Below, piece by piece: positions 17,099-58,820 of a DNA stretch of 64,000 bases. The stretch lies in NCBI GenBank assembly GCA_029962745.1, contig CM057151.1, forward strand, positions 9,487,142-9,551,141, given 5' to 3'. The first letter of the stretch is position 1; the number at the start of each line of letters is the position of its first letter. The DNA comes from Echinometra lucunter. Taxonomy: Eukaryota; Echinodermata; Echinoidea; Camarodonta; Echinometridae. The translations under genes and the position numbers were made by a program. The notes below the pieces were generated by a model. The model was not told the origin of the DNA, did no database searches, and saw only the letters and a list, made by a program, of their open reading frames with translations.

Positions 17099-17143
17099 CT
17101 AACGAAGATCCAAACCATTCCTCTCGCCAAAGTCTTCGATGAT
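17099..17143 (-). CDS. candidate secreted peptide precursor, exon 6 (terminal)
   Basis: Minus-strand terminal exon. A long pyrimidine tract (complement of 17144-17175) ends in ctctctctgcag. It is followed in phase 0 by 14 codons, IIEDFGERNGLDLR, and TAG (17101-17099). It joins in phase to exon 5, whose last codon is CAG. The acidic/hydrophobic pattern continues the helical character of exon 5. The exon was found only from splice signal plus phase. The alternative phase-0 acceptor near 23767 gives Ser-Pro-Phe-Phe-stop and looks far less likely. Confidence 0.72.
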   Translation of the reverse strand: MIEDFGERNGLDLR

Positions 17144-19392
17144 CTGCAGAGAGAGAGAGGGGGGTGGGGTGGGGTAAGGTGTGAAGGAGGGAGGGGAGAT
17201 GGGATGTAGACAGAGAGAGGGGCAATGTGAATAAATGAAAACGACGAAGAGAGGAGGAGAGAGAGAGTCGGGATAGGAAATGGGAAAGAGAAGAAAACGT
17301 ATTACTTTATAAATAGAATAAATCTATACCATCCCTTCCAAATATACTTTCTGAACCTTTAGCTACATGTTATAGAGTACTTCAAAGCATTATACAAAAT
17401 ACTTTTTCCCCCATTTTTCATTTTATTCACGGTTAACAAAAACTGTATACAAATTATTGTGCCCGCTTTCAGCTAAAAGCAGTTTTCAGCGAGGCCACGA
17501 TAAAACATTGAACAGTAGATATAAACAAGGAAAATGCAATTCACAAACAACAGATATGCAAGTTACAGATGAACATATTAACAGAAGTAGAAAAGAACAA
17601 AATCGAATCAATAGTGACGAAATTTTACCCCAAAATGAAAAGAAAGTTAAAAGAGTGAGGACAGAGAAAAGACAGACAGCTAGGGAGGTAGAGGAAGCTT
17701 TAATAACCCCGCATTCCGGCAAAGAACTAGCCAATCTCCAAAATCATTTTGATAATATCTTATTTTACACATTCGACTGAATAGGATTGAATGGAACTGT
17801 ATTCCATTGCATTAGAAATCAGCATGTGTTACACTTAATTTTACATTCACTACCCCTATACAGTACTGTGAAATAGATGATAAAAACTTATTCACTGTAA
17901 GTGACACTCCGTTGCAGTAATTTTTGCGACTCGAACTTAACATTATTTATGAAATTCTAGTTCAACGTGAAGACTCATGTTATCTTTTTCAATATTGATG
18001 AGTGGTGACGCATATTAAAAACGTCGCCATTCAAAATCTCCGAATATTTACTCACATATTCCAAACCTCCACGTTTGTCTAGAATGAAAGTGACTAGATT
18101 CCACCAAATCTATCTAGAGTATTAAAGATTAATTGCTTGAAATCTCTTAAGAAAGTAGGAATTTTTATCAAAATGGAAATCAAGACAGCAAATGTGAAAA
18201 AATGTCTAACAAAGGCGTATTTTGTTTGGTTGTGCAAATTCCCAGTATTATCGTTTACAAAAATAAATCGAGTCCTACCTGTTCAACCCTTTAATCAGTT
18301 CAATGTGGAAATGTATTCAGCCAGTATCAAATTAGATAAACACTATTCTCAGGTCCTTCCTCTATACTTGATTGGAAATTTTAGGACTGTAAGACGAAAC
18401 GGTGCAATTGAAAAAAGGCTTTATAGTACCAACAAACCTGAAACTAGCTATTCCACTTTCAATCGTTAACATTTTCTCACTTTTTGCTACTTCATATCGT
18501 CTATTTTTTTAACTTGCGGGGGAAATGTGAGTTAGGAAACACATGGGAGGGTGTGAGAGATTACGCTTGAAGAGGGTGTGGGAGGAGATGCAAGGCAGGT
18601 GACACCCTCCGCCCCGCAACTACGCTCCTGCATGAAGAGACCTCCATATCGTAAATTATTTTTGTGTGCTTGGAAAAATTTGAACTGAAATTAATGTCTA
18701 TTATCCTCTCCTCGCAGTCATGTGGCTCAAGTGAAAAAGGTTTACAATATGAAAAACATATACAGATATTAAAAAGAAAATGAACGTACACTCAAATCAC
18801 ACGAATTGAAGACATGGGTATGACAGACAATACACTTCAAAATCATCCATAAACAGATGCTTTTTGAACTGACAAATGTGTTTTTCGAATTAGAAATTTC
18901 TACTTGAACAGAAATATCAACCATTTTTTAATTATGTCGGATGGGATACGGAAGGTGATACAATCAAAATGAACAAAGCCTTCCAACCTTTGTAAAGTGC
19001 CATTTCATTCCTTTCAACTCTTCAAGCATCGCTCTTCATTATTACTTCCACATATCCTCTTTATTTTAATAATAACCGTGAAAAAAGCATGAAAATAATC
19101 ATAGCATATACCACTGAACATATCTAAATGCTACATTGTTACGTGCTAGACACTTAGTATATGCCGCAGGGCGGTATAAGTCCGATATATCTTTTTGTTT
19201 CAATGGTAGGCGTAATAACCCGTCCTTGGTATGAAGTATCAACTATGACGTACGATGTAGAGGGCAGTTCGATAGTAACAAAGAATCGCATTTGATGCGA
19301 GAATTTTATATGGAATTTACGCAATTATTAGTATTCAGACTGTAAGATGTCAAGTGGTATCGCCTTTTCATAAATGAATGAAAAATGTGAAT

Positions 19393-19430
19393 ATATCTCA
19401 TTTCCAACATGACTGTTGGAAATGAGATAT
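19393..19430. repeat. perfect 17-bp hairpin with 4-nt loop
   Basis: ATATCTCATTTCCAACA (19393-19409), loop tgac, then its exact reverse complement (19414-19430). Function unknown. Confidence 0.9.
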
Positions 19431-22341
19431 TCTTATATCCAACAAAATTCCTTACAAAATACATTCGTAGACAGAAGCGTGACTGGCTATCATTGCATGG
19501 GGGGGGGGGGGGTAGCCCGATCAAATTTTATGTGAATATGAATATTTCAGTAATGAAAACATAATTCTAAGAATCTTGAAATGCGAAGGTCCTTAAATAT
19601 TCGAATTTTCCGAGGGGGATATTAAATCACCCAGAGAAAGGATAAAAAAAATGTAATTTTTAGATCTTAATTGCCACCTTAGGGTTCCAAAAGTAAAAGT
19701 CGAAAATCAAATTTTTTCGATAGGAAATTCTAAACAATGATCCCAAAGCAGCTTTGCAAACTTTTTCCTCAAACTGTATATTCTGAATAAACGTAAGTAA
19801 CTCACTCAAGTAACAACCAAATATATAGATTCTGCATCTATAACATTTTAGTATCATTTTGTACTTGAGCCTACATCGACCAAGATACGAAAGTGTACAA
19901 GGTAATTCTGTTGATTTTTTGAGAATTCCAAGTAGCCACCCCATTATGTACATATTTTGCAAGCTTAATTTTAAACATGTTTGTCGTAAGACCTATGGTA
20001 AAATCTGTGGGTGCAATTCAATACATCATTCTATTTTCCGGTTGCCATTAAAGAAAACAGGCTTTTTTTTTTTTTTTTACAAAAGTACCCCCGAAAACCT
20101 GACCAAGACAGAAACCATGACTCTTTTCCCTATATTCGTCTTTGTGATCTTTTGACTTGTTGTGTTCAATGAAAACAGTACATCCCGACAGGGACTAAAT
20201 TTAGATGAAATGGGTTCTTCTTATTTCATGATCATTGTTGCTTGTTGATTCGACCGCGGTCATGAGCGGGGTCAAGACCACGAGTGTGGCCGAAGCTCTG
20301 CCCGTCCATTGCCTGTCAACGGACGGTGGTTCAAAGCAAACAGTGTAGACATGTCGCAGGAAGGGGTTTGATAGTGTCAAGAGAGTGGTCTGACGTAGAA
20401 ACACTCTCAACTTAACACCAACAAACCATTCTTTGCCCTCAGATATCTTCCTTTTTCCCCACAAAATAATGAAAACGTGAAAAGAACTCCAGTATTACTT
20501 ATTTCATCATACAAAAAATGTATGAAAATAATTACTCAATACACAACATCAAACGCGATAGACGTAAACTCAAAGGTATGTCACGCGAAGTTAGAGAGAT
20601 AAAACTCCTGCAAGATATAAGTAGCCCTACATAAATATAGAAGTTGATAAGTCACTGTATAGTGTTGCTTACGCCAGCGACGAATCCAGGATATGGACTG
20701 CTTAAAATCAGTCCTTTTCGTGGCTGCACAGAAGTTTTTACTGTAAATGTTAAATTCGAGGCGCATTCACTCTAAATTTCTTAGAAATCGATCCAAGAAA
20801 TTGTGATAAGGGATAAATCCAAAATTAAATTAAGAAATTATAACCTTCAAAGTTGATTTATAAATCTATTAGATCAAGAATCTAATTGAATTTTTGATTT
20901 TGGTTCGCAATTTTTAAATGTATTGGATTTGGTCAAATTATGAATGGGATTGGGCTATGGATCCAGGACCGGGCACAACGGTAGACATAACCCCTTCTTC
21001 TATGTGCATAAAATGTTCATTTATTGCTTATAAGTCAGAGTCACGTAATGAAAATTTTACTTTATTTTAGTGATGAATTAAGAATTTAAATCAAAACAAC
21101 AAATGAAAATACCTATGAAGTGTTTAAGGACAGACAATATTATATATGAAGAGGTCATACAAAAGGACATTTATAACTGGGAAAATTTTCGATATATATT
21201 TGTTAAAAGTTGACTCCACCTGTAAGGAAATTGATGTTTCCTTCAAAAATCTCCTCACCACATTGAATGTATATAAGACAGTCTTTTAATAACTTTACCG
21301 GCTGCAATATTGAGGGAAAAAATGGGATTTCAATGTAAAGTTTAAAAATATGGACGTGCTAAGTTGCCGACATTCATTTGATATTTTGCGCGTTTTAAGT
21401 ACGAAATTGAATTTTGAAAGTTTTAATATGGCCGAAAGTATCTAATTCTTCTTCAATTTGTCTTTCTTTGCCTCTGTTTTCCGTCTATCGTTGGCTGGTA
21501 ATTGTATCGTTACTGACTGTTTACACAATAACAATCTTACATGCACAGTTTAGAATTATCTCATCTTCAGCCATTCTCTCCTACTGTAGCTTTATGATTT
21601 GATATTGAGTTGTTGCATTCAAGTCAATCTTGCAGTTTGTTCGAAACTGCTTACTAGAATCGTTGAAAAGAGCGAGCTACCGAGAAGCCCCCCCCCCCCC
21701 CCCCCTCCCTCATCACGTTGCCATACACCTGTACCTTAACTCTGGACAACTGGGTGAGATGAATGCGTGTGAATAAGAGTCCTTTCAAAAATCTCGTCCA
21801 ATTATTACCTTACACATGTTACGAGGTCAAATATGAATGTCAATCAATGTGAGTACAGATCGTACACTACGGAAAGACGAGTTTTATACACCACCCGGCT
21901 TTTTCTACTCAATGCGTTGTTTGAGAATCAAAAATCTTACGGCGTTGGTGGATTTGAGCATGGTGCCTTTGAAATTAGGTAATAAAAACATCGCCATACT
22001 CTGCACACCAAGGCCATTACGACTAGAAAGCTGCAATAATTTGAAAACATGACGTGTAAAGAAATCATGCTTCATCAACGACCAGTGGAGGTAATAGAAT
22101 TGTGGAAGCGTTTACGGGGATTTGCAAAAGATTTAAATGTAGACCTGGTAAATGTACACATTTTGTTAAGACCACCTGTAAACAACTGGCCTGCATTTAG
22201 AAATTGAAATAGGATGGAATATGGAATATTAAGAATATGAATTTAGGTCCCAGCTTTTCAGAATGATTGCAGGGTGTTATCAGCATCTTATGAAATAAAG
22301 ATCTTATCGACTGCGAATCGTAACGACGAATCGTTAAGCTC

Positions 22342-22704
22342 GGCGCACACTGTACGATCCGACTGCGATCCGATTTTCGAACAAATGGCATATTGCATTA
22401 AACATGGAAGTTTAAACAAGTAAAACTGTCTTATTTGAAGTCCGGAATAATGATAGGAATACTAAAATCGAAATTTTGGTTAACTGCAAGCCTTGTGGTC
22501 GGAGTAAAGGCCAAATCGGCTTCAAATCTTAGCCGATTGCAAGATTGCTATGACGTCACTACGATTTGGAATTGAATTCGCTTTTATTCCTTCATACGAC
22601 TATTTGGAGCTTTGATCATGTGGATTTTATGTTTGAATATTCATATCAACTGCTATAACAAAATTTCCCCAAATCGGATCGCAGTCGCATCGTGCAGTGT
22701 GACG
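22342..22704. mobile_element. MITE-like element, CGATCCGACTGCGATCCG termini
   Basis: The left end CACACTGTACGATCCGACTG + CGATCCGATTT faces an inverted right end (complement CACACTGCACGATGCGACTG + CGATCCGATTT) about 330 bp away. The interior is non-coding. The same terminus occurs at 60079, and a more diverged relative lies at about 61240-61660. Size, inverted termini and dispersed copies fit a non-autonomous DNA transposon. The superfamily is not determined. Confidence 0.65.
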
Positions 22705-24284
22705 ATTTATCCAACGTTTATGGGATGAAAATCCCGGGGGGGGGGGGGCTGTCCCTAACAACGTTGTCAGGGTGACACAATATCGAATGCATCCTTGCCC
22801 TTTCGCTCGTAGGCTTGTCAAACATCCCTAACTAAATGAGATGACTTTTTCTCTCTCTCTCTCTCTCTTGTCAGAGAATTTCGAATGTGTCCCCTTCATA
22901 TTTCCAATTCTCACTATAGCGTTTTTTGATGTAAACTGTCATTATAACCGTTTCGAACCTCAATCACTCTATATTCTTTAGAAATATTTAAAACTTTAGA
23001 AAATCATTATTTAATCACAATTTGCAATACCTTTCGGAATTCAGTCGTAGTCTGGTCGAAAGGTAGGCGGTGGCACTAGATAGATATTACCATTTTGGAA
23101 TGCGTAATAATGACAATCAACCCTACCTTTTGTGTAAAAAATAAGTAGGAAGATGCTAATGTTTAAAAGCACGCAATATGACGCTCTGCCCCTGGTGATA
23201 AAATGGTCTTGGTTATGGCATCATAACAATGAACCCTTGTAAATGCATTTCTGAAAAGTCAAGGCACTTTAATTCTAGTGATTAGACGACTGATGTTTGA
23301 GTTGAAATAAGATTTGACGACGTTTGTGCAATGAAATGTGTCTAAGCTTTCCAGGCAAATGTTGTAATTGAGTATAAACTGGAACGGAGTTTGTGTGGTT
23401 GTATAGCAGACGGATGCAATGCCATTCTAGTTCTAGAAATTTAATCTTCTCCAAATAAGTCTTCAAATTCGTAACATGTAATGTCGCCATTTAATTCTAA
23501 CCCAATGAAAATTTTCATTCATTTCAATTTGTAAATTTATTCCGGACGCTGCTGCAATTGGTATATCAAAATGAATAGTTTTAGAATCCCTTCCACGTTT
23601 CGCAATAATTCATCGTTACCCAAAGAAACCTTACCCCATTTGAAACGTCTGCGTTTCCTTCTTACAATGAATCATTCTTGTAGTACAATTTCGACGAAGT
23701 TCTGCAGGGTACACCAAATCTCCTCCAATCGCGAATCCGCCCCCTCCCAAAATTAGAAAAAAGGAGACTGTAAAAAGTATTGGGTTACAAATTTCTCACA
23801 AAGATATTTCGCCGTTTTACGGTCTACTAAAAATAGTTACATTAGAATATGTCAGGGATTATCTTTGTCGGGCATAGGAAAGGTCCAAAAATGGGTGGAC
23901 ACATTTCGACTTGGGAAATATTTCGACCAATACTTCAAGGGGGAATTTTATCTACTTTAATAGAAAGCGCAGTGCCTCAAATCCAGGTCACTGTCTCTTA
24001 TCGACTTGCCCCATCCAATGTCACTGCCAACGTATTGCCAAAATTGATATTAATAGTATCAATATTTTCTGTCAAAATGTCTTGTGAACATACTTCCCGA
24101 TGTCTATCATGCATTTAGTTATCGAATTTAATTGTATGTAACTCCTTCGTCCTATATTCCCTATACCTCTCACTTATACCTCTGTCCTGTCCCAACCAAA
24201 ACAAACATCGTCCCTATACTACCCCTTTCTCGTCTGATCTCAGCGTTCACAACGGTAACATGTCGTTTGTTTCCTTGAGGCTCA

Positions 24285-24580
24285 TAATTCTGAAAAAATT
24301 CAATTTCCCGAGGGTTCGTAATCGCAAAAATAAAATAGGATTCATGATCCCCAAAATAAGTTACGGTTCATAATTCAGAAAATAAAATGGGGTTCATAAT
24401 TCCGGAAATAAAGCAGGATTTATAGTTCAAAAATAAAAGCGGGCTCGCACTTCCGATGGTTTATAGCTCCGAAAATAAAATAGAATCCTGTGTCGTCTTC
24501 GGAGTTACGAACCTCTGAAATATTGATCTCTATTGTCTTCGGAATTATAAACCACGGTATAGGAAATATGTGTTTGCAAT
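24285..24580. repeat. degenerate 26-bp minisatellite, GGTTCATAATTCCGAAAATA type
   Basis: About seven units of roughly 26 bp run forward (24285-24480). At 24500-24555 the same motif appears in reverse orientation (GGAATTATAAACC). No coding content. Confidence 0.7.
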
Positions 24581-26765
24581 ATACACCTTCGTTTTTCAAC
24601 GTAGGAGAAAATAAAAACCTTCGGGGAAAAAAAAAAAACACGAATATCTTCCTTTGCTATTGGTCTTTCTTTTGTTTACATCTTCACTATTATTTCCTTC
24701 TCTGTCATTCGAGAAGTGATTGAGTATTTCTATTGTCACACTGAACAGTTTCAGATCTAATAAAATGACAGCTCTTAATGCGCTCTTAACTCATTATGTC
24801 CAGGTGACATGTCCACTCTGTCCAGCTGGGCGCCAAATCACAAAGAAAATAACCTAGCTTCGACGAAAATTTCTCATGATCTAGTTTACAGCAACAGGGA
24901 CCTTTGAAGGAGAATGCTGAAAGTATAATAACCCCATATGATTGAAACGTTTTCGGAGATATCAGAAGGGTAAACGGTTTCTCAGGAATGACGTTCAAAA
25001 TGTTCTACATCATGGACATGCATTGCGTCTGTCAAATACCGTTTCCGCGTCCATTCGCATTTCGGGTCGATTGATTTTATAGTCAAAATGTTATAACTTG
25101 GAAATTTTTTTGTGGAAAAGTTATGTAAAATCTAAATGGAAAACGGAACGAAGATCGAAATGAAATGAAGTAACGTTCGTCTCGCAGTATTTCCTTGCTG
25201 TAAATGGATAGGAGTGTCTATAGAATTTACAATTAAAAATTGGGTTAATCTTTATGACCCATACATAATTTCGCCAATGGTGTTATGATACACCCGTGTT
25301 ATTATTTTGTCTCTTTTCGTTTTTCTTGTTGGTTTGTTTGTTTGTTTGTTTGTTGTTGTTTCATACGAATGTTTGTGTATTTTTATCAGAGCAAGGTAAT
25401 ATGCAGTAGAGCCAATTATTCTTCCAAACATAAGTATATCACAAACAAAAATCTTGTTACGAATCATGCACGTTTTGTTACAAGAAGACTCCTCTTCACC
25501 GTATCACCTCTCCTCATCCATTTAGCAGTACCCCCCCCCCTCCTCTATCCCGTGGTTCTTAGTCGGCTCCTAAAAAGAGAGCAGTAGTGATTTAGGCATG
25601 TACTTTGCTAAACAAAGACCTCATTTCCTGTCATAATTACGGTCATGATCTTAAACTGTTTTCATCATATAGTCTCACATGATAATATACATAAAATGCT
25701 TTCTTCAACCTCAACATGCAGAGATCGGAACCTTGCTTCACCATCGTCTGGTTTATTACCTCCTTTCTCCTTCATTGTTTATTTTCCCTCTCTGTGGATG
25801 TCTTTTCTATAGTGGGTCTATAACCAATAATGACATTTCCGCACTTTAAGAAACATGACGGTGGTTATTCTGCCTTGGCAGTAATGCGCTAGGACCTGGA
25901 CTCTAATGCTCTGAACCACTATGTTTGTGAATGTGTAACTGTAACGTTTGGTACTATGTTCCTTATTGAAGATTGACAATAAAGTGATACAATACCAATA
26001 CATATTTCTCTTTGTAATCTTCAAAGGCCTTCATCAAAATGTCTTATTCCAGTAGGCTATACTAGGCCAACAAGAAGACTAATCTCGAACCCAACTATCT
26101 TTTGTTCATTTCATGTCAACTCAGATTGCTAACAAAAATACACAAAATTTTCGTACAAAACAGCAAACAAACAAACAAACCTAAACACAACATTGGTGTG
26201 ACATCATTGCGGACATTGTGTATGGATCTTTTCTCTTTTTTTCAGTCATCTTCAGACATGAGCTATAGTTATGAAAGTCGTACGATCGTCTTTTTTCAAC
26301 CTTGTAGTTCAAACAACAGTACTAATCTTTTTATATAAACAACAAGCAGACAGCCCCAAAACTACGGTTATAAATTATTCTATCATTTCTTCCTCTTGCG
26401 TATAAAAATGTGGAATTTACCAATAAAAGATTCTGGGGATGGGTGTCGAGCAGTAACACCCTTCTAGGGAGCCCCTAAAGATATGAGGAATAGATCGCGG
26501 GCGCTGGTAGGGGTCACTGATCAGATGTATAAAGGCTTGTTCACATTTGTTGCGGTAAACCCATAGACATAATTATCAAAATGTATACAAAATAAATCTA
26601 ATAGCGCGGGCTGCCCACTTTGTATACGTGGCAGCAGCGTGATCATTCGGTCAGGGTAAAAGACAAAAAACAAAAAAACAAAAAAAAACAAAAAAAAGAG
26701 AGAGAGAGAGAAAGAAAGAAAGAAGGAACCGCATGGGTGTTTCACTTTTGTTGTTTGCTTTCAAA

Positions 26766-27098
26766 TCTTACTAAGAAAAAAGGTGCACTGGGAGCTCCTT
26801 TTTGGGTGCAACTATGCACATTAATAAGCCTTTTGCACCTTTAAGGGTGCAGTTAGCTACATTTTGCACCCTAAAGGGTGCAGAATTGTACCCTTTTAGG
26901 AAAGGTGCAAATTTGCACCTTTTTGTACCCAAAAATTTATGCACCCTAAAAGGTGCAAAGTTGCACCTTTTAGGATGCAAACGGGCATTTCCGGGTGCAA
27001 ACGAGAACAAAAAGGTGCATTTTTGATGTAGGGTGCAAGATTGCACCCAAAAAGGTGCTGCCAGTGTTGCAAACTTGCACCTTTTTTCCTAATGTGTA
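26766..27098. mobile_element. foldback/MITE-like element, GGTGCAAA-rich, copy 1
   Basis: Bounded by CTAAGAAAAAAGGTGCA on the left and its near complement (TGCACCTTTTTTCCTAATGT) on the right. Inside are a second inverted pair around CTGGGAGCTCC and many copies of GGTGCAAA/TTTGCACC. A second copy with the same order of motifs lies at 46780-47136. Both are flanked by or begin with TA. Non-autonomous; no ORF of its own. Confidence 0.8.
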
Positions 27099-40156: not shown

Positions 40157-40209
40157 CTCAGCATTTGTACTCATAGAGTTTTGTGACAGACCACCGTCCC
40201 TCTTGCCCA
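40157..40209 (-). CDS. candidate secreted peptide precursor, exon 4 (amidation/cleavage site)
   Basis: Minus-strand 53-bp exon. Acceptor ctattctgttttaacag, donor GCTGAG/gtaaat. Only one frame is open; it needs one base from exon 3 (phase 1) and ends in phase 0. It encodes a junction Val, then GKRDGGLSQNSMSTNAE. Gly-Lys-Arg immediately after Val is the classical signal for dibasic cleavage with C-terminal amidation by prohormone convertase, carboxypeptidase and PAM. The mature peptide would end Gly-Gly-Val-amide. The remaining residues look like a flexible spacer. Confidence 0.75.
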
Positions 40210-41616: not shown

Positions 41617-41667
41617 CTCCTCCTGCACAAAGTAGACTTAATCTCGGTGGACATTGACGTCCTCTGG
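41617..41667 (-). CDS. candidate secreted peptide precursor, exon 3 (cysteine-loop peptide)
   Basis: Minus-strand 51-bp exon with strong signals (acceptor cttgtttttcttacag, donor GGAGGAG/gtaagaat). It is phase 1 on both sides in the frame that matches its neighbours: a junction Ala, RGRQCPPRLSLLCAGG, and one leftover G. Two cysteines seven residues apart (C42 and C50 of the joined protein) would form a disulfide loop CPPRLSLLC. Arg-Gly-Arg precedes Gln-Cys, so cleavage there could expose an N-terminal Gln able to cyclise to pyroglutamate. The loop size (seven between the cysteines) differs from the vasopressin, CCAP, calcitonin and MCH loops. I cannot name the family. A second frame is also open but its phase does not fit exon 4. 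Confidence 0.78.
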
Positions 41668-43677
41668 CTGTAAGAAAAACAAGAACAAATATAGATAGTA
41701 AGTAATCACAAAGATAAATACGAGGGATTCCAACGTATTTGATCATTTTGATATATTCCCTACGCAACCAAGTATAGTATGAGTTGACTTTATTGACATT
41801 AAAGTTATCATTTTGCTTCATATTTCATCGAGTTACGGCTCTAGTAGAGCTATTTTCTGAATATTATCATCAGAAATCCAAATCATGCTAATTATCTTAA
41901 AAGTTAGTCCGTAAGGTAGGCCTAGTATGGGATGAAATAGCATGGTCTCGCCCACAAATCACCTAAACTATTTTGATGCACGTCCAAGAGCTCCGGTGAA
42001 ATGGATAGAGGTGCATCCTTTGTTTATGGAGAGCCAGTTGTGTAAATTCCATTTCCCGTAAGAAATACCATAATTATGTACCCAAATGAATGCCATACGA
42101 AAGTCCTGTCACTGTGAAAGTAACCTTCAAATAATGTCAATTAGTCACCCTATATCATATGAACAGGGAATAGGGACCATGAAGAAAAGTTTAGACTTAA
42201 CTGCGACTTTTGATTTTCAATGATATTTCGTGTTCATACACGTCGTAATACTTTAGCACTGTGAAACCCGCAGTAAATGTCTCCGAAAAGATACATTTCT
42301 AATCGCATTAATCGACAAAAGTGGTTTACATCTGACAAATTATTGCAGCAGAGACATGAAATGGTTATAGTGAACAAGTGAATATTGGTAATTCCGTATA
42401 CATCTCAATAACAGCAACCAAATTTTATTTGTCAAGCTCCACCTAGCAAGGTTCGTTTATCTGTTTGATCATAAGGCTTAAGCTCGGCAAGTTTGTGAAG
42501 CGGTTTTGATAATCAACTGAGCCAAACTAATACAGATACCTCTTAATTTTATTATTTTTTGTTGTTGTTGTTGATGGCTTCCTTCTATATTTTTGAAAAT
42601 GAGAATCCAATTATAAACTGATAATGTTACACATTAATCCATTAGGAGTCATTACATTTACAAGCCTGCAAGAATTGTAGGGAAAGAAGAAAGCAAGAAA
42701 ATAATGTAAAATCGGAAAAAGAGGTCATGAAGACAATCCGTCAAAAAATTTCAGCTGATTTGAACTTCATGAGAGCCATACCCTGATCCATGATTTTGTG
42801 AAGGAATGGGGAAGAATTCTGGAGAAAAAAACGAAACTGAGAAAAAAAATCATCCCATTCTATTGATGGTAATTTACTCACAAAGTCTTCGAAAAGCAAG
42901 AGAGGAAGGAAGAGGGAAATAGAAAAAGAGATGGAGAGAGAGAGAGAAAGAAAGAGAGAGAGAGGGAGGTGGAGAGAAAGTCAACAATTTTATCTTTTCT
43001 TTTTTTTAGATGCCTTTTGGGTCGAAGATTTGAAATGGGGGTCATATAAGGCCGTGTAGGTCAGGTATGCCATTTGGGTTGGAAAAAAAGAATGTGCGCT
43101 ATTAAATTGTTCTGCCAGCAGAAGATGTTGCTTCCGAGTACTAGTAATGTCACAGCACCCTCAATATGGCTTGATTTGAACTTATAATCTGGCTATTTTG
43201 ATGCATCGGGACCAGCCTATTGGACGATGGGTTAGAAAATGATACAATAGTAATCAGTCAAAGAGGAGAAGAATCGGAAGTCTCCGCAGCAGTATGATGA
43301 CCGTTGATAAATCTCTGCGTCATCAATTGGATAAGACCACTTGAAAGAAAGTTAATCTCTCTAATACATCAAGCCTTGTACTATTCCTCAAGTCTGATCA
43401 TGGCGGAGAATCCAAGAAAGTTCACCCAGAATAGACGGAACGTTTTTATCCCTCTCAAAAGCATCGTTAGTCAATGTCACTGGTAGGATCGGAGGAGAAA
43501 ATAGAAAAGAAAGGTCCTCTGAGAATCTACACCTCCCAACAACAGAAGATGGCATCGTGCTCTAAAGTACCGTAACCTTGGTAACCCATCTTTTGGCATT
43601 CTCCTAGTAACACCTTGTGATTGCTAAGTCATGTCCTCTGGTATTGACATAGGATCAATGATAATAGTTTTAAACAT

Positions 43678-47136: not shown

Positions 47137-49643
47137 GGATAAAACAAATATGTGGGGTTTTTTTGTTACAGGCACTTGAAACTAAATCAAAAATCATACA
47201 ATCCTTTTATTTCATTTCATACTGCATATTTTCAGACGGCGAAATGGATAGAGTACCTTTAACTTCAACCTGGCGGTACATATTCTTGTACAATGCTCAA
47301 CTTCATGGAGTCCTCTGTTCATATCATTTTCTGTGCATGACACAAACTACACAGGAAATTGAGAGAAATGAGCAAATATGGTTTCCCCTTCTCGATATGG
47401 CATTTGAAAACTGGTAAGGAGATGCTAGACTATATATTTATTGAAAAACTGAACAAAAGAATATGACTGAACGTCATCACATCTCAATAAGAACCTGAAA
47501 AGGCAACAGTAAATGGAATAAAATTAGAAAAAACCCGCACTGTTTAATTGCTCTTTAAAAAAAAAACCAAGAAGAAAATTAAACGAACAAAAATAAAACA
47601 GAAACAGAAACAAACAAAAAACAAAACAAAAACAAAAAACAAAAACGCTTCATATTATTACATCCTGTATTGGATATCTGACCAGAAGGCCTGAATGATA
47701 AAAATCTCAAATAATGAAAGCCATTAATAAATCATTCAAGAGCTACATTTCATTCAAATAAAAAAACCCTCTGATAAAGAAAGGGATTTGCTAAATTCTG
47801 ATAATGAATTCGTTCATTTCATATGATTTTTTGTGTCTATTATTTGTCATTTTCCCCTCTTTCCTCCACTTTCCCCCTCTCACTGAAGCCCTTTTCTTTC
47901 TTTGTTACATCCTGTAACTAGAAATTCAACTGAAACTGAACCTGACGTCTTTGAGTAAAATGGCGAGCTGTAACCAAAACAACTCCATCATTGAACCTTA
48001 CCCACTTCCTATAGATGTAACAAACATCTAAACAGAATAGAAATGTAAGATGGATCTTGATATCAAAGACGAATAGAACTCACGGTCATACACATTATCG
48101 CGATGGGACAAAATGGACATCATCAGAAACAAATCAGAAACACTGATGTGAGCTCCTGTGAGTAATGCGGTTTTACATGTCTTTACTAAAAATGGTTCCA
48201 ATCCAGAATTGAAGAGACCGAGGTTGTCTGCCATCGGACACTGCGATTAATGTTGCTTCGAAATAGCTCTTTCTCACATGGCATTCATCATTTATCGATT
48301 TGGCTTAATGTCACCCTGAGAAAGAGTACTGAACATGGATAGAATGATGTTGTAAGATTCAAATATGCAACGCTTATAAGACACGTAAGGTAACATTTAT
48401 TACTCTTTCTGCACTGCGCTGCTGTATAACTTCACCTGCATATACATATACATGTACGTTCCTTCGATGATACAGTCGAGTGCCTTGACCCTGCCCCTCA
48501 TCGGGGGCGTAGCGACCGAGGGGAGGGGAGGGGGACGGGCGGGTGTAAGGTGAAGCAAGTGCAACCCCCTCTTCCAATATTTTGCCAAATATCTGGGTTT
48601 GTCGTCCTCAAAATCTAAATTTCCTGCCTTTATCGGTAAATTGAAGAGGAAACGTGACGACCGTTTTTCTTGTATTTATTTTCAATTCGTTTGCTTATAT
48701 TTACTTGGCTTATATTTGCGTTCTCAAAAGTTGACAATTTTTAATCAAATCTTGCTTTTAACGCAATTGTCCCCCTCTTCTAAATGTACCCCTATTAACG
48801 CTGATATACAATGAGGTACCTGCTCTCGTTCTCCTGAAAAAAAAAAATCCATGTTTATTCGACCAACAGCAATTTAATGCTACCTTTAAATCGAGCTTTC
48901 ATTCGTTTTGAAATTGTTTATTTATTATATTTATGTACATAATTTATATCCATAAGGAAGTATTTGAAATTCTATAGGGAAAACAAAATCAACCCACCAG
49001 CCTTTCAGCCCTCATACTTTCACACATGTAAAAATTATATGTATTCATTCAGTTTTTCATCTAAAGTCAGATTAAAATTATTGTAAAGAGGTACTCTTCC
49101 AAATCATTTCACACACTTGTTTGTAAATAATAATCAGTTTAAAATGTTACATTGATTCACACGGTATTAGAAATAGCGCGTCTGTGAAAGATTTCTTAGA
49201 ATAGTCAAGATTGTCTTCCATCGGAAGCTGGGCAGCTGAAAAATGCATTATCTGACAAATCGATTCATATTTTAATTTGTGATGACTTGCTGTTTCCATG
49301 AACATTCAGAAGGCTGAAAGTAATGATTATGCTTTAACAGTTTTCAAGAGCTCATGAATAGCATGTTGTTCAATGCAGTTACGAGCGACAAGGTAACATT
49401 TTCGAACGACCATCGCAGGATTCAGATTCATTTCATTCGCTCACAATCCACGCAATTTATTGACATTTTGCAACTGTTATCACTGCTCTAGCATGTCTAG
49501 TGATGTGGGAGAAAAACGAAAGCACAATTATCATGTTGTTTGTCTCAAGCAGTTTGTAATAGCATAACGAATACGTTTATAGAATGATGACTAAGTTGTA
49601 GCAAAAAAAGAAAATAAAAGCCCGGGAGAGAGAGAGAGAGAGC

Positions 49644-49914
49644 AGTGGCGGCGATTTCATGTAACCGGGGGGGGGGGGGGGAGGGGGGAGGGACGGAAAC
49701 ACTGAAGGTCACCTCCGAAAATCTTTTTCGAGAAGTGGAAGGGGAATGATCGTTATCATGCGAGCGAGCGAAATGAGCGAGCTAAAAATAATGAAAGAAG
49801 CCCCACTTTGCCATGACACTACACTCAAGGCCTATAAAATATTTAAGTGTTCGGCCTTAAGTTGGTCACCTGACTCCCCCCGTCCCACCCCCCCCCCCCC
49901 CAATCGCCGCCTAT
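49644..49914. mobile_element. short inverted-repeat element with G-run/C-run ends
   Basis: AGTGGCGGCGATT followed by a G run of about 15, and at the other end a C run then AATCGCCGCCTAT. GA repeats flank both sides. The inverted ends plus subterminal homopolymers suggest a small transposon-like unit. The homopolymers make exact limits unsure. Confidence 0.5.
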
Positions 49915-51012
49915 GAGAGAGAGAGAGACAGACAGACTTTTAGAATCAAATTCATGATAGCAGCCTGGTCTAAAGCTTTCCTCAGGGAAAAATACATCTA
50001 AAAACTGTGGTTGAAATGACAAAATTCTGGTAATATAGTGCTCACATTATTTCCCATTTGGAAACCCTTTCACAAACTTCTCGACGGTATAATTCGGGCA
50101 TCACTCGACTGTTTAAAAAAAATATTTTCCCCTATTTTTTAAATTTTTATTAAAGACACATCATGATTATAATAACCGGTGTAATGCATAATGTAATAAT
50201 TATGATAATTTTATAAATAATTACACTCACTTCTGTGAAAGCATTAATCAAGTATATCGACTATTACGTAGCAAAATTTCTAATCCATGACTTGCATGAA
50301 ATTTGTGAAAGGGATGTTAATGACCAGCTGCCTGCTAATACTGCTGATGAAACTCATGACACTTTCAATATATTAAGTTTCATATGTAATCGTAGAAACC
50401 CTGCGATTTGATTTCGAGTCATGCTCAAATACAAATTTGAATGCATGAGGTGATCAAGATCAAAACACATTCCTAATTGATGATGGATAGCATGCGGCAA
50501 CATTTTTAAGTTTATGGGTTCCGGTAAGATACATCATCGAAACGTGAGCAATTAGGTATGAAAAGAATAAGAAGAAGAGTTATGTTTTTGTCACACCGAC
50601 AAACCGACTCAGTAAAGATTCTAAACGGACCGATTCTTACTCATTCCGGGTAAAGTTGACACCAACGAGACGGACATCAGACCCTGATAACAAACCGAAC
50701 AAACACTACTTTTAACCGAATAGAGGAGAGTCGAACTGTTTTGAATCTGTTTGGCGGTATGACTGATGAATATGTTTTTGTTGTTGGACCTGCTGTCGGT
50801 CTGGTCTGGTGTAGTCTCATCAGTGGGATAATACCCAGTTGCGCCAACGAGGCTGACAACATACCGTCGAAATACTTAGCAAAAATTACGTTTAACCGGA
50901 TGGTGAGGAGTTCGATAGGTCTAGAGTCGGCCTTGAGTCGGTTTGGAATCGGTCTGGCATAGTGACTGAGGAATCCAGGAATACGTTTTTGGTGTTAACC
51001 TTTAATCGATCT

Positions 51013-51226
51013 GGGTGGTGTTTCACAAAGATTTAAGTGTGACTTAAAGTCATGCTTAGGCGCCAACACGCACATGTTATTTAACGCGTAATCTCATTGA
51101 TGGATACGCGGTAGCGCGCGCACCCTGTGCATGATCTGACCAATGAGGTGATGCGTTATATTCCACACGCAAATAGGAATTTAAGTGCGATTTTTAGTCA
51201 GACTTAAATCTTTGTGAAACACCCCC
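51013..51226. mobile_element. MITE, GGGTGGTGTTTCACAAAG termini, copy 1
   Basis: 214 bp. Left GTTTCACAAAGATTTAAGTG is matched by right ACTTAAATCTTTGTGAAAC in reverse complement. Interior ACGCGTAATCTCATTGAT is shared with copy 2. Confidence 0.85.
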
Positions 51227-51283
51227 TATTCTTTATCTCATCATTCATGTCAATGGGATTGTGGTATATAGGCAGTCACACCT

Positions 51284-51511
51284 GGGGGTGTTTCACAAAG
51301 AGTTATGTTTGACCTAGAGTCGTGCTTAAACGCCAATGCCTGTCCGGTATTTATCGCGTAATCTAATTGATAGACTTTTCATTAGCGCTCGTGCCCTGAG
51401 CATGATCTGACCAACTGAATGCAGTGATGCGTAATTTTGATACAGCACTAAGTAGGAATTTAAGTGCAACTTTAAGTCAAACTTAAATCTTTGTGAAACA
51501 CCCCCCCCCCC
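51284..51511. mobile_element. MITE, GGGTGTTTCACAAAG termini, copy 2
   Basis: 228 bp, same orientation as copy 1 and 57 bp from it. Shares CGCGTAATCTAATTGATAGA-like interior and GCATGATCTGACCAA. Its right end runs into a C homopolymer. Confidence 0.85.
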
Positions 51512-53054
51512 GGTCATACCAACGCAGTTCCGACAACATATACGGTATATACTGATACTGAGCAAACAGTACGTTATCCGAAATGGCCAAGAATTGGGTG
51601 ATTTCGATTCAAATTGGCGGTGTGACCGAAATATAATCTACCAACAGCGTGAATAAAATGAATATGAATAAATGTGTAGAGTGCTTTGAAAAGAAAATAC
51701 CATGGAAATAATACATGGTTTGTAGACATAATTTTATTCATTAAATGAAATAAAATCAGTGCCATTCAGAGTTTATTGTTGACAGTGGTTGTGTGCTGAT
51801 GTTAGCGACTGATGTGCACTCGTGTATCTTATACATGAATGAAATAAATCATTACAAATAATTTGATTCATTAAAGTGTCTCATTTACAAAGATGATGTC
51901 CGTGCTTCAATTAAATCAATGTTTCAGTGAACTTAAAAATACAGTATCAATATTACTTTAACCAATCGAGATGAACTCCAAATAACAATTTCATGCAAAA
52001 TTGAAGGATTTGCCCTTAATACGCCTCTTTCATGGTTCTTTACTGAACTCCCATCCTTAAAATAAGGTTTGGTATGAATCAACATCAACATCAGCTATAC
52101 CCCTTTCCCCATTATGAACATAAGTGGACGGTCTTCAAGTTGGATTTATATTTCTTGGTGTCATAACAGTCATGACAGTTAGTGCTACTAAAAAGAAACA
52201 TAAACCACATCAATATATCATGTCTATAGGGGTTTGCAAATACAAGCCTGGCTTTTGAGCATTCGCCTGCCATTTTCAACATTTATTATATACCTAATTT
52301 GGAAAATTTCATTGTTTGAAAATTATTCTTATTTTATGTATTCTGATGATTATGTAATTACTTTTATATATAATTATGTATGTTATTCTTAGTTGAAAAT
52401 GGAAAAATAAATGATATAAATTGAATGAACTGAAATATATAAGACGAAACTTGTAAAACTATTTTATGATGACGACAACGGAACAAAGCTTGCACGAAAG
52501 AGATGTTTGTAATAAACAATTTACGCAATGATTTTTCAATATCTACCGACGGTGATGAAAATATCGAATGTTATAAAAGTTGCTTTTGCACAACACAAAA
52601 CAACACAATATAATTATGAGTATCATCACAACATAACAGAGAAATATTGAAATGGCTGGATGACGTGAATGGTGAGAAGAAAAGAGAAAAGATCTCACGA
52701 CTGCCTCTTTCAGTTCGTCATCTCGCATGGGAACATTCTCCCCCGTTTCAATCTGGATGACCACGACATACCTGTAATGAAATGCATGAAAATATACCCT
52801 TAATGTGATTTTTATATCATGAATGTACCAATAATCTATAAATATTCGCGATGTTTGTGTGCGCGTGTGTGTTGAGGCAGTTTTGCGTTGTTGGCTTGAT
52901 GATGTCTGTGTCGCTTTTGCCTCCTTTATCATTGTTTCTGGTAAGTGCCTCCAACTTCCTCCTTTGTCAGAAGCCGAAAGATACCAGATCCGTTAGGTTC
53001 ATCATTAATCATTGGAGTGAGTACGATTGACACGTATCCCCAATTGAATGGCAC

Positions 53055-53115
53055 AAAGAAGAGGGGGGGGGGGGGAGAGAAAGAAAAGAAGAGAGAGAGA
53101 GAGAGAGTGAAGGAG
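53055..53115. repeat. G run plus (GA)n
   Basis: About 15 G's then GA repeats, a low-complexity tract. Confidence 0.9.
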
Positions 53116-53889
53116 TGCATGAGGAAGGGGAGAAGAAAAGATGCCTCGACAATGCATACACCTAATGGCAATGTTAATTCGGATTTCATCATAGCGCCAT
53201 CCAGTCACCCCCCCCCCGCCCATGATGCAAGTGTTCCCTGACACTTGCTACTGCTACCCACTCTAGCTACCCTAAGAAAGACGATATGGTGATCTTTTGA
53301 TTAATTCGGAAGTTGTGTAAAGATTATATAATCAAAACAATAGCTTGATAACCGTTTAATCATCATTATACGATTCTATACATCATTTGAATTCCGCAGG
53401 GCAATAAATCTCAATGAAACTTATTACTACAATATGGTTCACTCAGTACAAACATACATAACACATGCTCTAAAGGGTTTTTGCATGCGTCAATACAGAG
53501 CTTATCATTTCCATTTGGTATAAGACCGTGTTTGAATGTAGATCAATGGTACTTATTAAAAGTGCATCAGTTCAATCGTCGGTCCCAGGGGAGCAAGTGA
53601 GTACCCTATTATGAAGATCGAGACATTTAGGACAATTAGAGGATGACAGAATACTATGGAAACAACTGTTTCATAAAGTCTTAACACCCTCGCATCTAAA
53701 TTCTTTTGTCAGGGCTGGATTAAGGAAGACATACTTACCTAAATTTCGCAATGTATACTTAACGAAATATGTCTCACATTGCTGTTATTGCTTATGAACG
53801 GTGCGAAATATGTATACGTGTGGCTCTTTCATTTACCACATTTTGGTATTGCTGAAGTGATTTAAAAATGGTACACTTTACCGTAGAAG

Positions 53890-54600
53890 AGATGGCAAAA
53901 TGAAAGTGACTTTCTTGAGATATGACGGAGGTATTGAAAAGGACAATAAAACCAGGAAGAGGCGAGGAGAACAAAAGATGGAAAGCAATCCAACTCGGGG
54001 AAAATTGTGATAAGTGAATGATAAAAAGAAAATGGTAAAGTGGGGGGGAAGAGAGGAAAGCGGGAAATAGGGTGCAATGGGGAGATAGAAGAAGGAAAGA
54101 AAATGGAGACGAAGATAAAAAAAGAGAAGTGGATAACGGACAAAAAAGGGTTCAGGACAATGGTAGGACAAGAATGAATAAAATATCCCCAAGTCCATTC
54201 GGAACAAACATGTCCACAGCCATTGAAAAGAGTAAATCAAAGGAGAAAATAAGCTTGGCAGAAAGAAAGACAGTAAGAGATAGAAGAAGGAGAGAGGGAA
54301 AGAGAATGGGCACAGAAAGAAAGTCAACCAAGGGAGAAAGACACAGAGAAAGCGGCAGAGGTGAGAAAAGAAGAGAGGGGAAAATGGAAAGAACAAATTA
54401 GAAGTGATACGCAGGACGTGAAATCGACTGTGCTGTTGAAAAGCGGAGAGGAATGAGAAGAGAGAGAGAGAGAGAGAGAGGATAGAGAGAGAGAGGAGAG
54501 AGAGATGGGGAGGCGAAAATATAATGAGAGAGTGAGGAATAGAAAGAAGAGACATAGTAAAGGAAAGAAAAAGAAACCGAGGAGAGGTGTCAAAATACAA
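53890..54600. repeat. polypurine tract of about 700 bp
   Basis: The + strand is overwhelmingly A and G, with (GA)n at 54460-54505. The complementary pyrimidine strand yields a 245-codon Ser/Leu/Phe-rich open frame. This is the longest in the window but has no domain character. Confidence 0.85.
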
Positions 54601-56513
54601 TAGAATATTGATCATTTCTGGATGAGCTATTCCGAAACAAACAACAAAACGTGAAGAAATATTAATTTCAAGCTGTTTATGAGTACCTCCTACTTATATT
54701 AAAAGAATATAGCTAGGATATCCACACATTTCCTGTTTCACAAAACAAAATAAATGCACGGGGTAAGGTGGTTGATATACTGACTTGTTTTTCTCCCACC
54801 CAAAATAGTACTGTCTGTCAATTCAAAGTATCGTTATGACTATACGAGACAGACAACATTAAAACGAAGATTATACATTTTCATATTTAGGATTGAGGTT
54901 AGATGATTTTATAGTTTCCTCTCAAGTGAAGTCAATGTGCTTTTTTGTCGGTGATGTCTCACCCGACACAATTTCAAAGCCAAACTACAAACACATTCGA
55001 TATCGTCAACATTCATCAGAATTAACCGCAGGTTTGAAGACAGGGATACAAAACCTGGTGCTTTATCTTCATCAATCGTTCATCTCATGCATCAAATTCT
55101 AAGCCAGAACCAGAATACTTGACAATAACTTCTAATTCTTACCTTGACGTAACAATGCGTCCTAATACTCCCTCTTCAGACGTTTCTTATTGCAAGCCTA
55201 TAGTGCTCTAATTATATGACCCTTGAAAGGTAAGTACATTGTTTGTTCTCATTAATAATGTTTCAGTCTTCAAAGAATCTTTATGGAATCAGGTCATTTT
55301 GACAAAAAATTAAAAAACAGAGAGTCAAAAAAGATTATCGGACAACAGAACACCAAGAAGGAAATGCAAGACCATCTTGACTGTAGGCAAAATAAGCTTT
55401 TCAGTCTAAACTTCCATGTCATAAATGGATATGTTATATTCATTTTCCTTATTCCCTTGCGTGTCAACAACTAAATGAGCTGAAAGAGTTTCTTAATGAT
55501 TGCCTTGAAAGGGCCAGGAATGCAAAAGTCGGAGTTTGATAAATATCACATCTTAATAGAGAGCAGTGAACTTCCATTGTTAATGTATACATGTAGTAAC
55601 GATATTCCAATTTATTTTTACAAGATCCATTTCTGCTACTTTTTCAAATTGATGAAAGTTAAAAGTATTACTGTTTTTATTGCTTGATTGTTTTTGTTGA
55701 TGATTTTCAACCAAAAAAAAAAATGTGTTTTTTTCTTGCTGGTACTCCAGACGTTTTAGAGGAGCTGACAAATGTGTTTTTGAGCGTGAAAATTGATGAA
55801 TTGAGCTGACGAAATACGGCATGTCAGCTTGGAAATATCAAACGTTCCCATCTCAATTTGTCAATAATTGGCAGTTTGAATTATTTCATATTTTCATCTC
55901 CTCCACTATAAGGTCCTCCTGTCAGTCTTCATTCTGCTGTTCCGCCATGCGCACCCTCACTCCAGATTTATCCCAGGAATTTAATTATTTTGCAATTCTA
56001 CAGATTGCCTACTCTCCGCGCGTGCGCGTGTGGACATGTCACCAACATCTTCAGCTCCGAACATGCCGAATGCAACTGAAATATAGTTGTGACCTTTTTG
56101 TTTTCTCATCGATATTTACTAATCTGCCGACTGGCTATTTTCAGCAGCAGCTCCCACTGATGTGGGGTTCTTTCTGTGGGCGGGATGAATGGGAGAAGGA
56201 ATCGATTTATAGGTCCAGGGAGAGATGATTCGAGTGTTAGGAGTAGGGACAGTAAATGCTCTCAGCCTAGGCCTAAATGACACAATCAGCAGGAATGGCG
56301 ATTTGGATTTCAGTATGATATGAGATGGGTATGATTAACTCACAAGAATAGGACAGATTCGAGTCGAATATGATTCTTAACGTAGACCCTATACTGGTCA
56401 AGGAAATGACGATGGGACAAGCAGAGAGATGGGAAGGGAAGTGGGCCTTACTGTAACTAACAGACATAAACATCATCATCACACCATCATCACCATCACC
56501 AACACCTTCCATT

Positions 56514-56514
<1 letters not shown>

Positions 56515-56550
<36 letters not shown>

Positions 56551-56551
56551 A
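56515..56551. repeat. (CAT)n microsatellite
   Basis: About twelve CAT triplets within a wider CAT/CAC-rich stretch (56470-56580). Confidence 0.95.
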
Positions 56552-57034
56552 CACCAATCATCGTCATTATCATCATCAACACATCACTGTCGTAATCATC
56601 TTAGTAGCAGCTCTACGAAAGAAGCAAACGTTCTTTGAAGAGGTTTTAAATAAGATGGATTAAGTTATTCGAAACTTGTCTCTGCTTTTAATCAGCAAAC
56701 CTGATACCACATTGGTACATTAATGCATAAGAAATCCTTTGAATTTAAATTCCTCATGATCATGATTTTATCCAAAGAACATTATGTCTGATGAATGTAT
56801 TATGAAATCATCAAATGTTGATCGTTACCAACATGATATTGCCCGGTGGAACTACATAGTTGTTATTATTATTGAAATAATTCTGAACTACCTTGGTGAA
56901 TTACATAATCTAGACCGAAATGACTATAGTTACAAATGATTCTTCTTAAAACCAGACAACATTAGATTGCCTGGTTCATTTGACAAAAAAATACCGTGAA
57001 ATAATGCAATGATCTTTTCATTGTATATTATTTG

Positions 57035-57534
57035 NNNNNNNNNNNNNNNNNNNNNNNNNNNNNNNNNNNNNNNNNNNNNNNNNNNNNNNNNNNNNNNNNN
57101 NNNNNNNNNNNNNNNNNNNNNNNNNNNNNNNNNNNNNNNNNNNNNNNNNNNNNNNNNNNNNNNNNNNNNNNNNNNNNNNNNNNNNNNNNNNNNNNNNNNN
57201 NNNNNNNNNNNNNNNNNNNNNNNNNNNNNNNNNNNNNNNNNNNNNNNNNNNNNNNNNNNNNNNNNNNNNNNNNNNNNNNNNNNNNNNNNNNNNNNNNNNN
57301 NNNNNNNNNNNNNNNNNNNNNNNNNNNNNNNNNNNNNNNNNNNNNNNNNNNNNNNNNNNNNNNNNNNNNNNNNNNNNNNNNNNNNNNNNNNNNNNNNNNN
57401 NNNNNNNNNNNNNNNNNNNNNNNNNNNNNNNNNNNNNNNNNNNNNNNNNNNNNNNNNNNNNNNNNNNNNNNNNNNNNNNNNNNNNNNNNNNNNNNNNNNN
57501 NNNNNNNNNNNNNNNNNNNNNNNNNNNNNNNNNN
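57035..57534. other. assembly gap (500 N) with duplicated flanks
   Basis: Exactly 500 N. The roughly 100 bases left of the gap (56932-57034) and the 90 bases right of it (57535-57624) are the same sequence with small indels, both starting AGTTACAAA.TGATTCTTCT and ending GTATATTATTTG. The gap is probably a scaffolding artefact where two overlapping contig ends were not merged. Confidence 0.95.
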
Positions 57535-57814
57535 AGTTACAAAATGATTCTTCTTAAAACCAGGCTTCATTTGACAAAAATACCGTGAAAATAATGCAAT
57601 GATCTTTTCTTTGTATATTATTTGCCGGAAAAATAATAATTGTTCATTTTTGTCTAAGTATATCCAAACTTATTCATCTAGTTGTATGTAACAAAATGAA
57701 ATACTGTGGTTGCCATTTAAGTTTTACGGAAATACATTACACATTTCATATTTTGTCAATTAAATGCTGAGCAGAAAACTGTAAAGCCACTAATGGACTT
57801 TCAGGGAGCCTTAC

Positions 57815-57853
57815 CTCCTTCCACCATTTTGTCAACGTAAATTTCATTTTGTC
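57815..57853 (-). CDS. candidate secreted peptide precursor, exon 2 (propeptide spacer)
   Basis: Minus-strand 39-bp exon. Acceptor ttcatctcatcatcaaatcag, donor GGAAGGAG/gtaaggct. Phase 1 at both ends: a junction Gly, then QNEIYVDKMVEG and a leftover G that pairs with exon 3 to give Ala. Skipping it leaves the frame intact, because exon 1 also joins exon 3 in phase. It could therefore be an alternative cassette. Support is splice sites plus phase only; the peptide is too short for similarity arguments. Confidence 0.58.
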
Positions 57854-58750
57854 CTGATTTGATGATGAGATGAAATCGAAATTTGTTTGAAATATAGGAG
57901 AAACGGAATAGGAGAAACAGAATCATTGTGTGCGTATATCTTCTGGAAGATCTCCATTTAAGGAGCTCCATTTAAACTTGTTTAATGTGCAGACCCTTCT
58001 GGCCTTCAGCAGGCGATATTGTGGGCCAGTATGCAACACATAGTATATCCACTTACTAATGACTCAAAGTAGCCTGTATTCATGACGTAATGTAAATCAG
58101 GCTCATAAGGTTGTGTTCTTAGTGTAACATTCTGGCATGATAAACATTGCACGTCCACGTTGTTTGTGGATTCTTAGCATCACTGCGCTAAGGAAAAACA
58201 GTCTCATCTTACAGCAGTGAATTCGAAAACGACTTGCACGGTTTTAAAAACCAGCTAGTTCATAAAGCGCATACCTAGTACCTTAGAAAATTGTAGCATT
58301 AGCAGCTGCAGCAGTAGTAGAAATGGTAGTCGTAGTACAAGAAGCAGTATGAGTTAAGTTTGCAATGAAATTGCTTTCCACCAAAAATGACCGCAGTCGC
58401 AGTTTCATCTAACTTCGTTCATTTCAGATAAGTTGTTGATGTAATATAGTCTGCTAATTGTTCGCGTGTTTCATTTGTCCTTAACTCGTTATCCTATGAA
58501 CGTTTACATCTTGTAGAAACTTGCGTTATGAGATCCGATATATTTTAAAGTAAAAAGAAGAACACCCTAGAAACATTATAGAATACGAATTACATATACA
58601 TTAAAAATGCCATTATCGGTTTATCTTCTCTAAAACTCCTTGGACTAAGAAATAAAGAGAAAATGCATGGTGCATAAATTATGACAATGAAGTAATTCAT
58701 TTCAAGTAATCATGTAAATAAAATATAGAGCAAAATATTACAAAACTTAC
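57854..58750 (-). other. intron 1 of the peptide gene
   Basis: 0.9-kb phase-1 intron. A short CAG/AGC/GTA-rich stretch lies at 58305-58350. I see nothing else. Confidence 0.55.
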
Positions 58751-58820
58751 CAAATGTGGAATGTGAGACAAGAACAACCAAAACAGTAGTGAGAAAAATG
58801 TATCTGAATTCCGGTGACAT
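58751..58820 (-). CDS. candidate secreted peptide precursor, exon 1 (signal peptide)
   Basis: ATG at 58820-58818 (context GACAAAATGTC, A at -3) opens MSPEFRYIFLTTVLVVLVSH, STF, then a leftover G at ACATTTG/gtaagttt (phase 1). Residues 7-18 form a typical hydrophobic signal core with a short N-region and small residues at the exit, so cleavage is expected around residues 21-24. An upstream in-frame ATG at 58931 would bury the core 38 residues deeper and is disfavoured. An acceptor-like site (ttcttctcttgattggcgcag) at 58965 suggests an upstream non-coding exon. All five exon junctions of the six-exon model agree in phase. Joined length is 123 residues. Confidence 0.75.

Follow-up and report, generated by a model that had tools for sequence, protein, structure and literature searches.

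A candidate six-exon gene for a small secreted peptide precursor with a cysteine loop in the sea urchin Echinometra lucunter

Excitatory peptides (EP, or GGNG peptides) and CCHamides share several features: the precursor holds a single peptide copy near its N-terminus, and the peptide is amidated and contains two Cys, an aromatic residue and, between the second Cys and the amidated end, two Gly or a Gly and an Ala (PMC6617912; this and the other papers cited here are represented by excerpts of their text). In Lineus, the EP2 precursor has 116 amino acids, and EP splice variants differ at the N-terminus of the peptide (PMC6617912). Echinoderm bombesin-type genes contain three introns, in phases 1 (within the peptide), 0 and 0, and their precursors carry PRXN and RIFGPXXa motifs (PMC12002301). 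Here we analyzed a 64,000-nucleotide stretch of the E. lucunter genome (assembly GCA_029962745.1, contig CM057151.1, positions 9,487,142 to 9,551,141 of the forward strand; hereafter the window), in which an earlier sequence-only reading had proposed a minus-strand gene for a secreted peptide precursor. We consider it probable that the locus is a genuine gene of the sea urchin and encodes a small secreted peptide precursor, whose product would be a signalling peptide acting on a G-protein-coupled receptor. The precursor is probably undescribed and belongs demonstrably to none of the families with which we compared it, while its layout and the phases of its last introns are reminiscent of the bombesin/CCHamide/excitatory-peptide superfamily.

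The proposed gene consists of six minus-strand segments running from position 58820 to 17099, which join into 372 nt and a 123-residue frame closed by TAG. In order from exon 1 to exon 6, the segments are 70, 39, 51, 53, 114 and 45 nt long, and the introns between them measure 897, 16147, 1407, 9925 and 12974 nt. All five junctions have AG/GT borders, the phases are 1, 1, 1, 0 and 0, and the joined frame contains no internal stop. Reanalysis of the sequence reproduced the six coordinates, borders, phases and frame of the sequence-only reading; its extent of 44 kb had to be corrected to a measured span of 41.7 kb. The parts of the gene are as follows.

58751..58820, minus strand: exon 1, with the start ATG and the signal peptide MSPEFRYIFLTTVLVVLVSHSTF, ending in a phase-1 donor (hydrophobic core mean, 2.73)
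57815..57853, minus strand: exon 2, 39 nt, phase 1-1, encoding GQNEIYVDKMVEG; the least certain exon by splice ranks, skippable in frame
41617..41667, minus strand: exon 3, 51 nt, phase 1-1, encoding the Cys-loop peptide ARGRQCPPRLSLLCAGG; the top internal-exon candidate of the strand
40157..40209, minus strand: exon 4, 53 nt, phase 1-0, encoding VGKRDGGLSQNSMSTNAE with the predicted amidation Gly and Lys-Arg cleavage site; placed by borders and splice scores
30118..30231, minus strand: exon 5, 114 nt, phase 0-0, encoding TFRKEFLLDSLEGFRQTVCPFDSVIEQFSREQQLELWQ; the third-ranked internal-exon candidate of the strand
17099..17143, minus strand: exon 6, encoding IIEDFGERNGLDLR and TAG; its acceptor, in a low-complexity pyrimidine run, is the best of the window
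57035..57534, no strand: 500-N assembly gap within intron 2, read from the sequence

Intron 3 splits a Val codon at the junction of exons 3 and 4. Because of the 500-N gap, an additional exon could be hidden in intron 2. We regard exons 1, 3, 4 and 5 as well supported, exon 6 as moderately supported and exon 2 as weakly supported.

The translation comprises a signal-peptide-like start and a Gln-Cys-x7-Cys-Ala-Gly-Gly-Val-Gly-Lys-Arg segment, and a third Cys lies in its C-terminal region. Its landmarks are Gln25, Gln41-Cys42, Cys50, Gly55-Lys56-Arg57, Thr72 (the start of exon 5) and Cys90; the loop occupies residues 42-50 of 123, and the whole product has three Cys. The signal peptide, CPPRLSLLC loop and Val-Gly-Lys-Arg site pointed out earlier are all visible in the translation, and inspection together with hydropathy found the general features of neuropeptide precursors, namely a signal peptide, a dibasic site and an amidation Gly. 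The product had also been called a neuropeptide or peptide-hormone precursor: sequence statistics agree with the secreted, amidated Cys-loop layout, whereas the neural part is one that we infer.

From the signal peptide, the single Cys loop, the amidation Gly and the Lys-Arg site, a secreted, cyclized and amidated ligand of a G-protein-coupled receptor can be proposed. Signal peptidase would cut at about Gly24/Gln25 and a prohormone convertase after Lys56-Arg57; a carboxypeptidase would strip the basic residues, Gly55 would be consumed in amidating Val54, and the ring would be closed by Cys42-Cys50. An additional cut at Arg40 would yield pGlu-CPPRLSLLCAGGV-amide (pGlu, pyroglutamate), with 14 residues, and without that cut the product would be a 30-residue form starting at Gln25. 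Release would occur from neurons or endocrine cells, and the C-terminal part of the precursor may act as a spacer or folding aid.

With the finding already known, we set the conditions for a qualifying chain of exons. Its first exon had to encode a signal-peptide-like sequence and end in a donor scoring 4 bits or better, three or more internal exons had to reach 3.5 bits at each of their sites, and the terminal exon needed an acceptor of 5 bits or better; the product had to contain a Cys loop and then Gly with two basic residues. Across 144 kb of contiguous DNA, the minus strand gave 69 such chains and the plus strand none. Exons 1, 3, 4 and 5 were present in every one of the 25 chains listed of these 69, and, apart from exon 1, no first exon of signal-peptide type on that minus strand reached 4 bits at its donor. 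When the search was limited to four internal exons, 47 products were obtained on two four-exon cores. As a control, we searched both strands of 60 mosaics of real DNA, each of 140 kb and drawn from 14 of 20 control loci; a chain appeared in 1 of these 120 strand runs, which are not independent, and in none of 100 shuffles of the minus strand. The combined definition beats chance.

A generic metazoan matrix served to score the splice sites, which were ranked over both strands of the window. The acceptor of exon 6 ranked first among 6596 AGs, and the donors of exons 2, 5 and 1 ranked 7th, 9th and 74th among 6552 GTs; as internal exons, exons 3 and 5 were first and third on the minus strand. Exon 4 was weak at both ends (acceptor 133rd of 6596, donor 100th of 6552).

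Two measures, GC excess and the ATG-poor leader, had played no part in selecting the path. All six exons were richer in GC than their own 300-base flanks, with a mean excess equalled by 43 of 5000 random sextets. The previous ATG starts 255 nt before the start codon, a gap this long being found at 89 of 15783 ATGs. Amino-acid composition was mildly protein-like in exons 2-4 (equalled in 139 of 2901, 318 of 2354 and 147 of 2229 random open segments, respectively). The following signals flank the coding exons.

58821..59072, minus strand: ATG-free leader of 252 nt, probable 5' untranslated region (nearest upstream ATG at 59075)
59162..59169, no strand: TGACGTCA palindrome, 342 bases upstream of the ATG (sequence match)
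17057..17062, minus strand: AATAAA, possible poly(A) signal, 36 bases past the stop codon (sequence match)

The start codon has an A at position -3. From its density in other DNA of the genome, TGACGTCA, which we take to be the cAMP-response-element consensus, is expected about 0.019 times within 500 nt. The GC content of the window is 35.5%; the mean of five sea urchins is 36.26% (PMC11310861). Among the contigs of the genome, C1 measures 61 Mb and C2 to C12 range from 44.5 down to 29.5 Mb.

Searching the 743-Mb genome (2266 contigs) with the protein at E up to 10 returned solely its own exons 1, 3, 4, 5 and 6, exon 5 at E 2.4e-18, and no row for the 13 residues of exon 2. Exons with their flanks gave self-matches only against 344 kb (the window and other genomic DNA), and the 501-bp region of exon 3 had no second full copy in the genome. 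The gene is apparently single copy and is not a repeat. Close to exon 3, on its upstream side, intron 2 contains a dispersed repeat (about 41722-41899) with at least 39 partial matches genome-wide. In Pfam, the sole match of the product, DUF7342, was rejected at E 0.15, and three of the six exon-bearing open reading frames gave nothing at 0.01; the product had no match in the PDB. Over 135 of the 212 listed open reading frames, Pfam matched DUF3915 (7.6e-6), LMBR1 (2.9e-4), PID and Glucan_synthase (both 3.6e-3), in one frame each, and Rfam gave nothing in the window. The string CPPRLSLLC occurred in no paper in open-licence text, figures and supplements excluded; nor did a matching precursor appear in the abstracts, passages and single sections compared, most precursor sequences being placed in figures and supplements. 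An automated gene model without a name may exist for the locus. The earlier statement that the product belongs to no known family stands for Pfam, the PDB and the families compared from papers, and its scope is limited to these.

We compared the product with the EP/CCHamide and bombesin types. Like EP (GGNG)/CCHamide precursors, it is short, with one N-terminal, single-copy peptide containing two Cys and a predicted amidation site (Q41-CPPRLSLLCAGGV-G55-K56-R57), and two Gly lie between the second Cys and the amide (C-A-G-G-V-amide), as in the published excerpts. It differs in that the loop PPRLSLL has no aromatic residue, the ring has seven residues, the end is Val rather than Asn or His, and a spacer precedes the loop. 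One further EP/CCHamide trait is found solely in the 30-residue form starting at Gln25, since 16 residues precede Q41; according to the excerpts, that rule has exceptions. Earthworm GGNG1 (sequence from PMC11922444), picked by eye, aligns as QCPPRLSL-LCAGGVG over KCAGRWAIHSCGGGNG, but the alignment is not significant, its score being reached by 366 of 5000 shuffles and by 608 of 5000 with Cys fixed. Like the echinoderm bombesin-type genes (ArBN and relatives), the locus combines a signal peptide, a peptide with predicted amidation that is split by a phase-1 intron, and two phase-0 introns. The last three of its five introns fit the phases 1, 0, 0, and two additional phase-1 introns precede them. 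Unlike these precursors, the 123 residues contain neither PRXN nor RIFGPXXa, and the word cysteine is absent from the main text of the bombesin-type paper (PMC12002301).

Other two-Cys families were compared as well. As here, elevenin precursors contain one peptide with two Cys and, close to its end, a Gly-Val pair; they have eight residues between the Cys, a conserved Arg-Gly after the ring (PMC10175484) and no amidation (PMC5627052), whereas the ring here has seven residues followed by Ala-Gly. MCH-type precursors (ArMCHP, Spnp14) are likewise short with a two-Cys peptide, which in ambulacrarians is C-terminal with Met/Ile after the first Cys (PMC4772807); the loop here lies at 42-50 of 123. 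Vasopressin/oxytocin-type precursors have a 14-Cys neurophysin after a short ring, against C-x7-C and three Cys in total here. Echinoderm CCHamide-like 1 (Arnp25, a 97-residue precursor, PMC4772807, PMC5627052; Ajnp25 in the sea cucumber, PMC6586643) is also a single-copy amidated two-Cys peptide, but the two Cys of Arn25 enclose four residues, against seven here. Starfish Arnp24, compared by description and not by Cys spacing, is an 83-residue precursor whose one amidated two-Cys peptide has 14 residues and lies at 62-75 (PMC4772807); our precursor is similarly short, and its one predicted peptide of this kind lies far from the C-terminus. Loop alignments were no better than shuffles for elevenin (4051 of 5000), allatostatin C (1715), asterotocin (1886) and holotocin (2537), and the Aplysia vasotocin match (278 of 5000; 321 of 5000 with Cys fixed) depended on four residues and was judged trivial.

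Several observations weigh against the gene as proposed, and they bear on two other accounts of the locus. One is a chance joining of unrelated splice-like sites, or the remains of a dead gene, which we hold to be unlikely. AG/GT pairs are abundant, the path was originally picked by eye, and by splice strength alone the gene does not rise above the background of the genome. Block-shuffling one strand 40 times gave a mean of 0.15 internal exons of at least 12.5 bits per 63 kb, but 400 kb of strand from the 20 control loci, which belong to this genome too, held 17 candidates (at 13 places) with a summed score of at least 12.5 bits, some of them evidently real exons. About two would therefore be expected in a stretch of the gene's size, and exon 5 itself sums to 12.6 bits, so that splice strength by itself proves little. 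The chain thresholds were chosen after the finding was known, and exon 2 was not required; the true chance is therefore higher than 1 in 120, and the mosaics reuse the same 20 loci. The composition of exon 5 is ordinary (equalled by 199 of 844 random open segments), and Cys90 has no partner; propeptide dimers could form through it. The helical acidic C-terminus of the sequence-only reading was borne out only in its charge: its final windows carry a net negative charge, but 595 of 5000 shuffles equalled the peak hydrophobic moment, and amphipathicity is not significant. Against a chance joining stand the rarity of chains in the mosaics and their absence from the shuffles, the open joined frame, and the concordance of GC, leader and composition. 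The other account, which overlaps our own, is that the core is real and its edges are wrong: the transcript may omit exon 2 or have something else in its place, or it may end in a different terminal exon, perhaps as isoforms; this we take as quite possible, if somewhat short of even. Exon 2 has 39 nt, is symmetric and has a weak acceptor (496th of 6596). In a splice-only path search with exon 1 fixed, the five-intron optimum differed from the proposed path, and the six-intron optimum retained exons 3, 4, 5 and 6 with two other short candidates in place of exon 2. At least ten other terminal exons were compatible with the exon 1/3/4/5 core among the chains listed, and intron 2 contains the 500-N gap. 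The excellent exon 2 donor, the rank of the exon 6 acceptor and the AATAAA 36 nt past the stop speak for the edges as drawn.

The identity of the product is a separate matter. A divergent GGNG-like deuterostome member of the bombesin/endothelin/CCHamide-excitatory-peptide superfamily with a receptor of that class, a reading that also overlaps ours, would account for the single N-terminal Cys pair, the two Gly, the amidation, the last three intron phases and the GGNG1 alignment. An intron lies just before the loop, recalling the Lineus EP variants that differ at the peptide N-terminus. Yet the GGNG1 score is not significant against shuffles, the trivial vasotocin match being as rare, and the loop has no aromatic residue or His, no terminal Asn, a ring of seven rather than eight and two extra phase-1 introns; we consider membership unlikely too. 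More doubtful is the narrower proposal that pGlu-CPPRLSLLCAGGV-amide would be an orphan cyclic neuropeptide of sea urchins corresponding, in deuterostomes, to the excitatory peptides (GGNG/CCHamide) of protostomes and retained beside a separate echinoderm bombesin-type gene, and we give it little credence. The product might instead be a real secreted small protein of egg, gut or immune function, comparable to the cyclic sperm-activating peptides. Echinoid sperm-activating peptides are small, and some are cyclic and amidated, but their precursors are multi-copy, whereas the locus encodes one copy, and Gly-Lys-Arg after one loop is a common neuropeptide layout; this alternative appears rather improbable. 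A precursor of a secreted signalling peptide remains the reading that we favour.

To the left of the peptide gene, a convergent plus-strand gene (window 1-9000) combines fibronectin-III-like exons, a Cys-rich membrane-like segment and a long Ser-rich tail. In a PDB search with its joined exons, titin, receptor phosphatases, Dscam, neogenin and DCC were among the best 60 of 111 matching sequences, and its tail had no match in Pfam; it encodes a fibronectin-III protein, probably a receptor. A minisatellite at 9617-10366 repeats a 33-bp unit about 23 times, and more than one frame of its plus strand is open. Upstream of the peptide gene, 61733-62339 holds two tandem copies of a 305-bp unit with 99% identity. 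Within intron 2, 47138-47413 on the plus strand is a strong internal-exon candidate of 276 nt (8.9 and 6.1 bits). Elsewhere in the genome, bindin (PF02084), a sperm protein of sea urchins that has distant relatives in starfish, gave three matches above the cut-off (best E 4.1e-69), and none of 14 control genomes gave any; a sea urchin origin of the DNA agrees with this.

If transcribed, the gene would provide an additional peptide ligand for sea urchins. With six exons of 39-114 bases spread over 42 kb, it illustrates how a precursor can evade single-frame gene finding. No ligands are known for a whole series of bombesin-receptor-related proteins in a starfish and other echinoderms (PMC12002301). 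If the peptide is EP/CCHamide-like, it would help to date the split between the bombesin, endothelin and CCHamide ligands, and if it is indeed the counterpart of the protostome excitatory peptides, a two-Cys GG-x-amide ligand would have been present in the last common ancestor of bilaterians.

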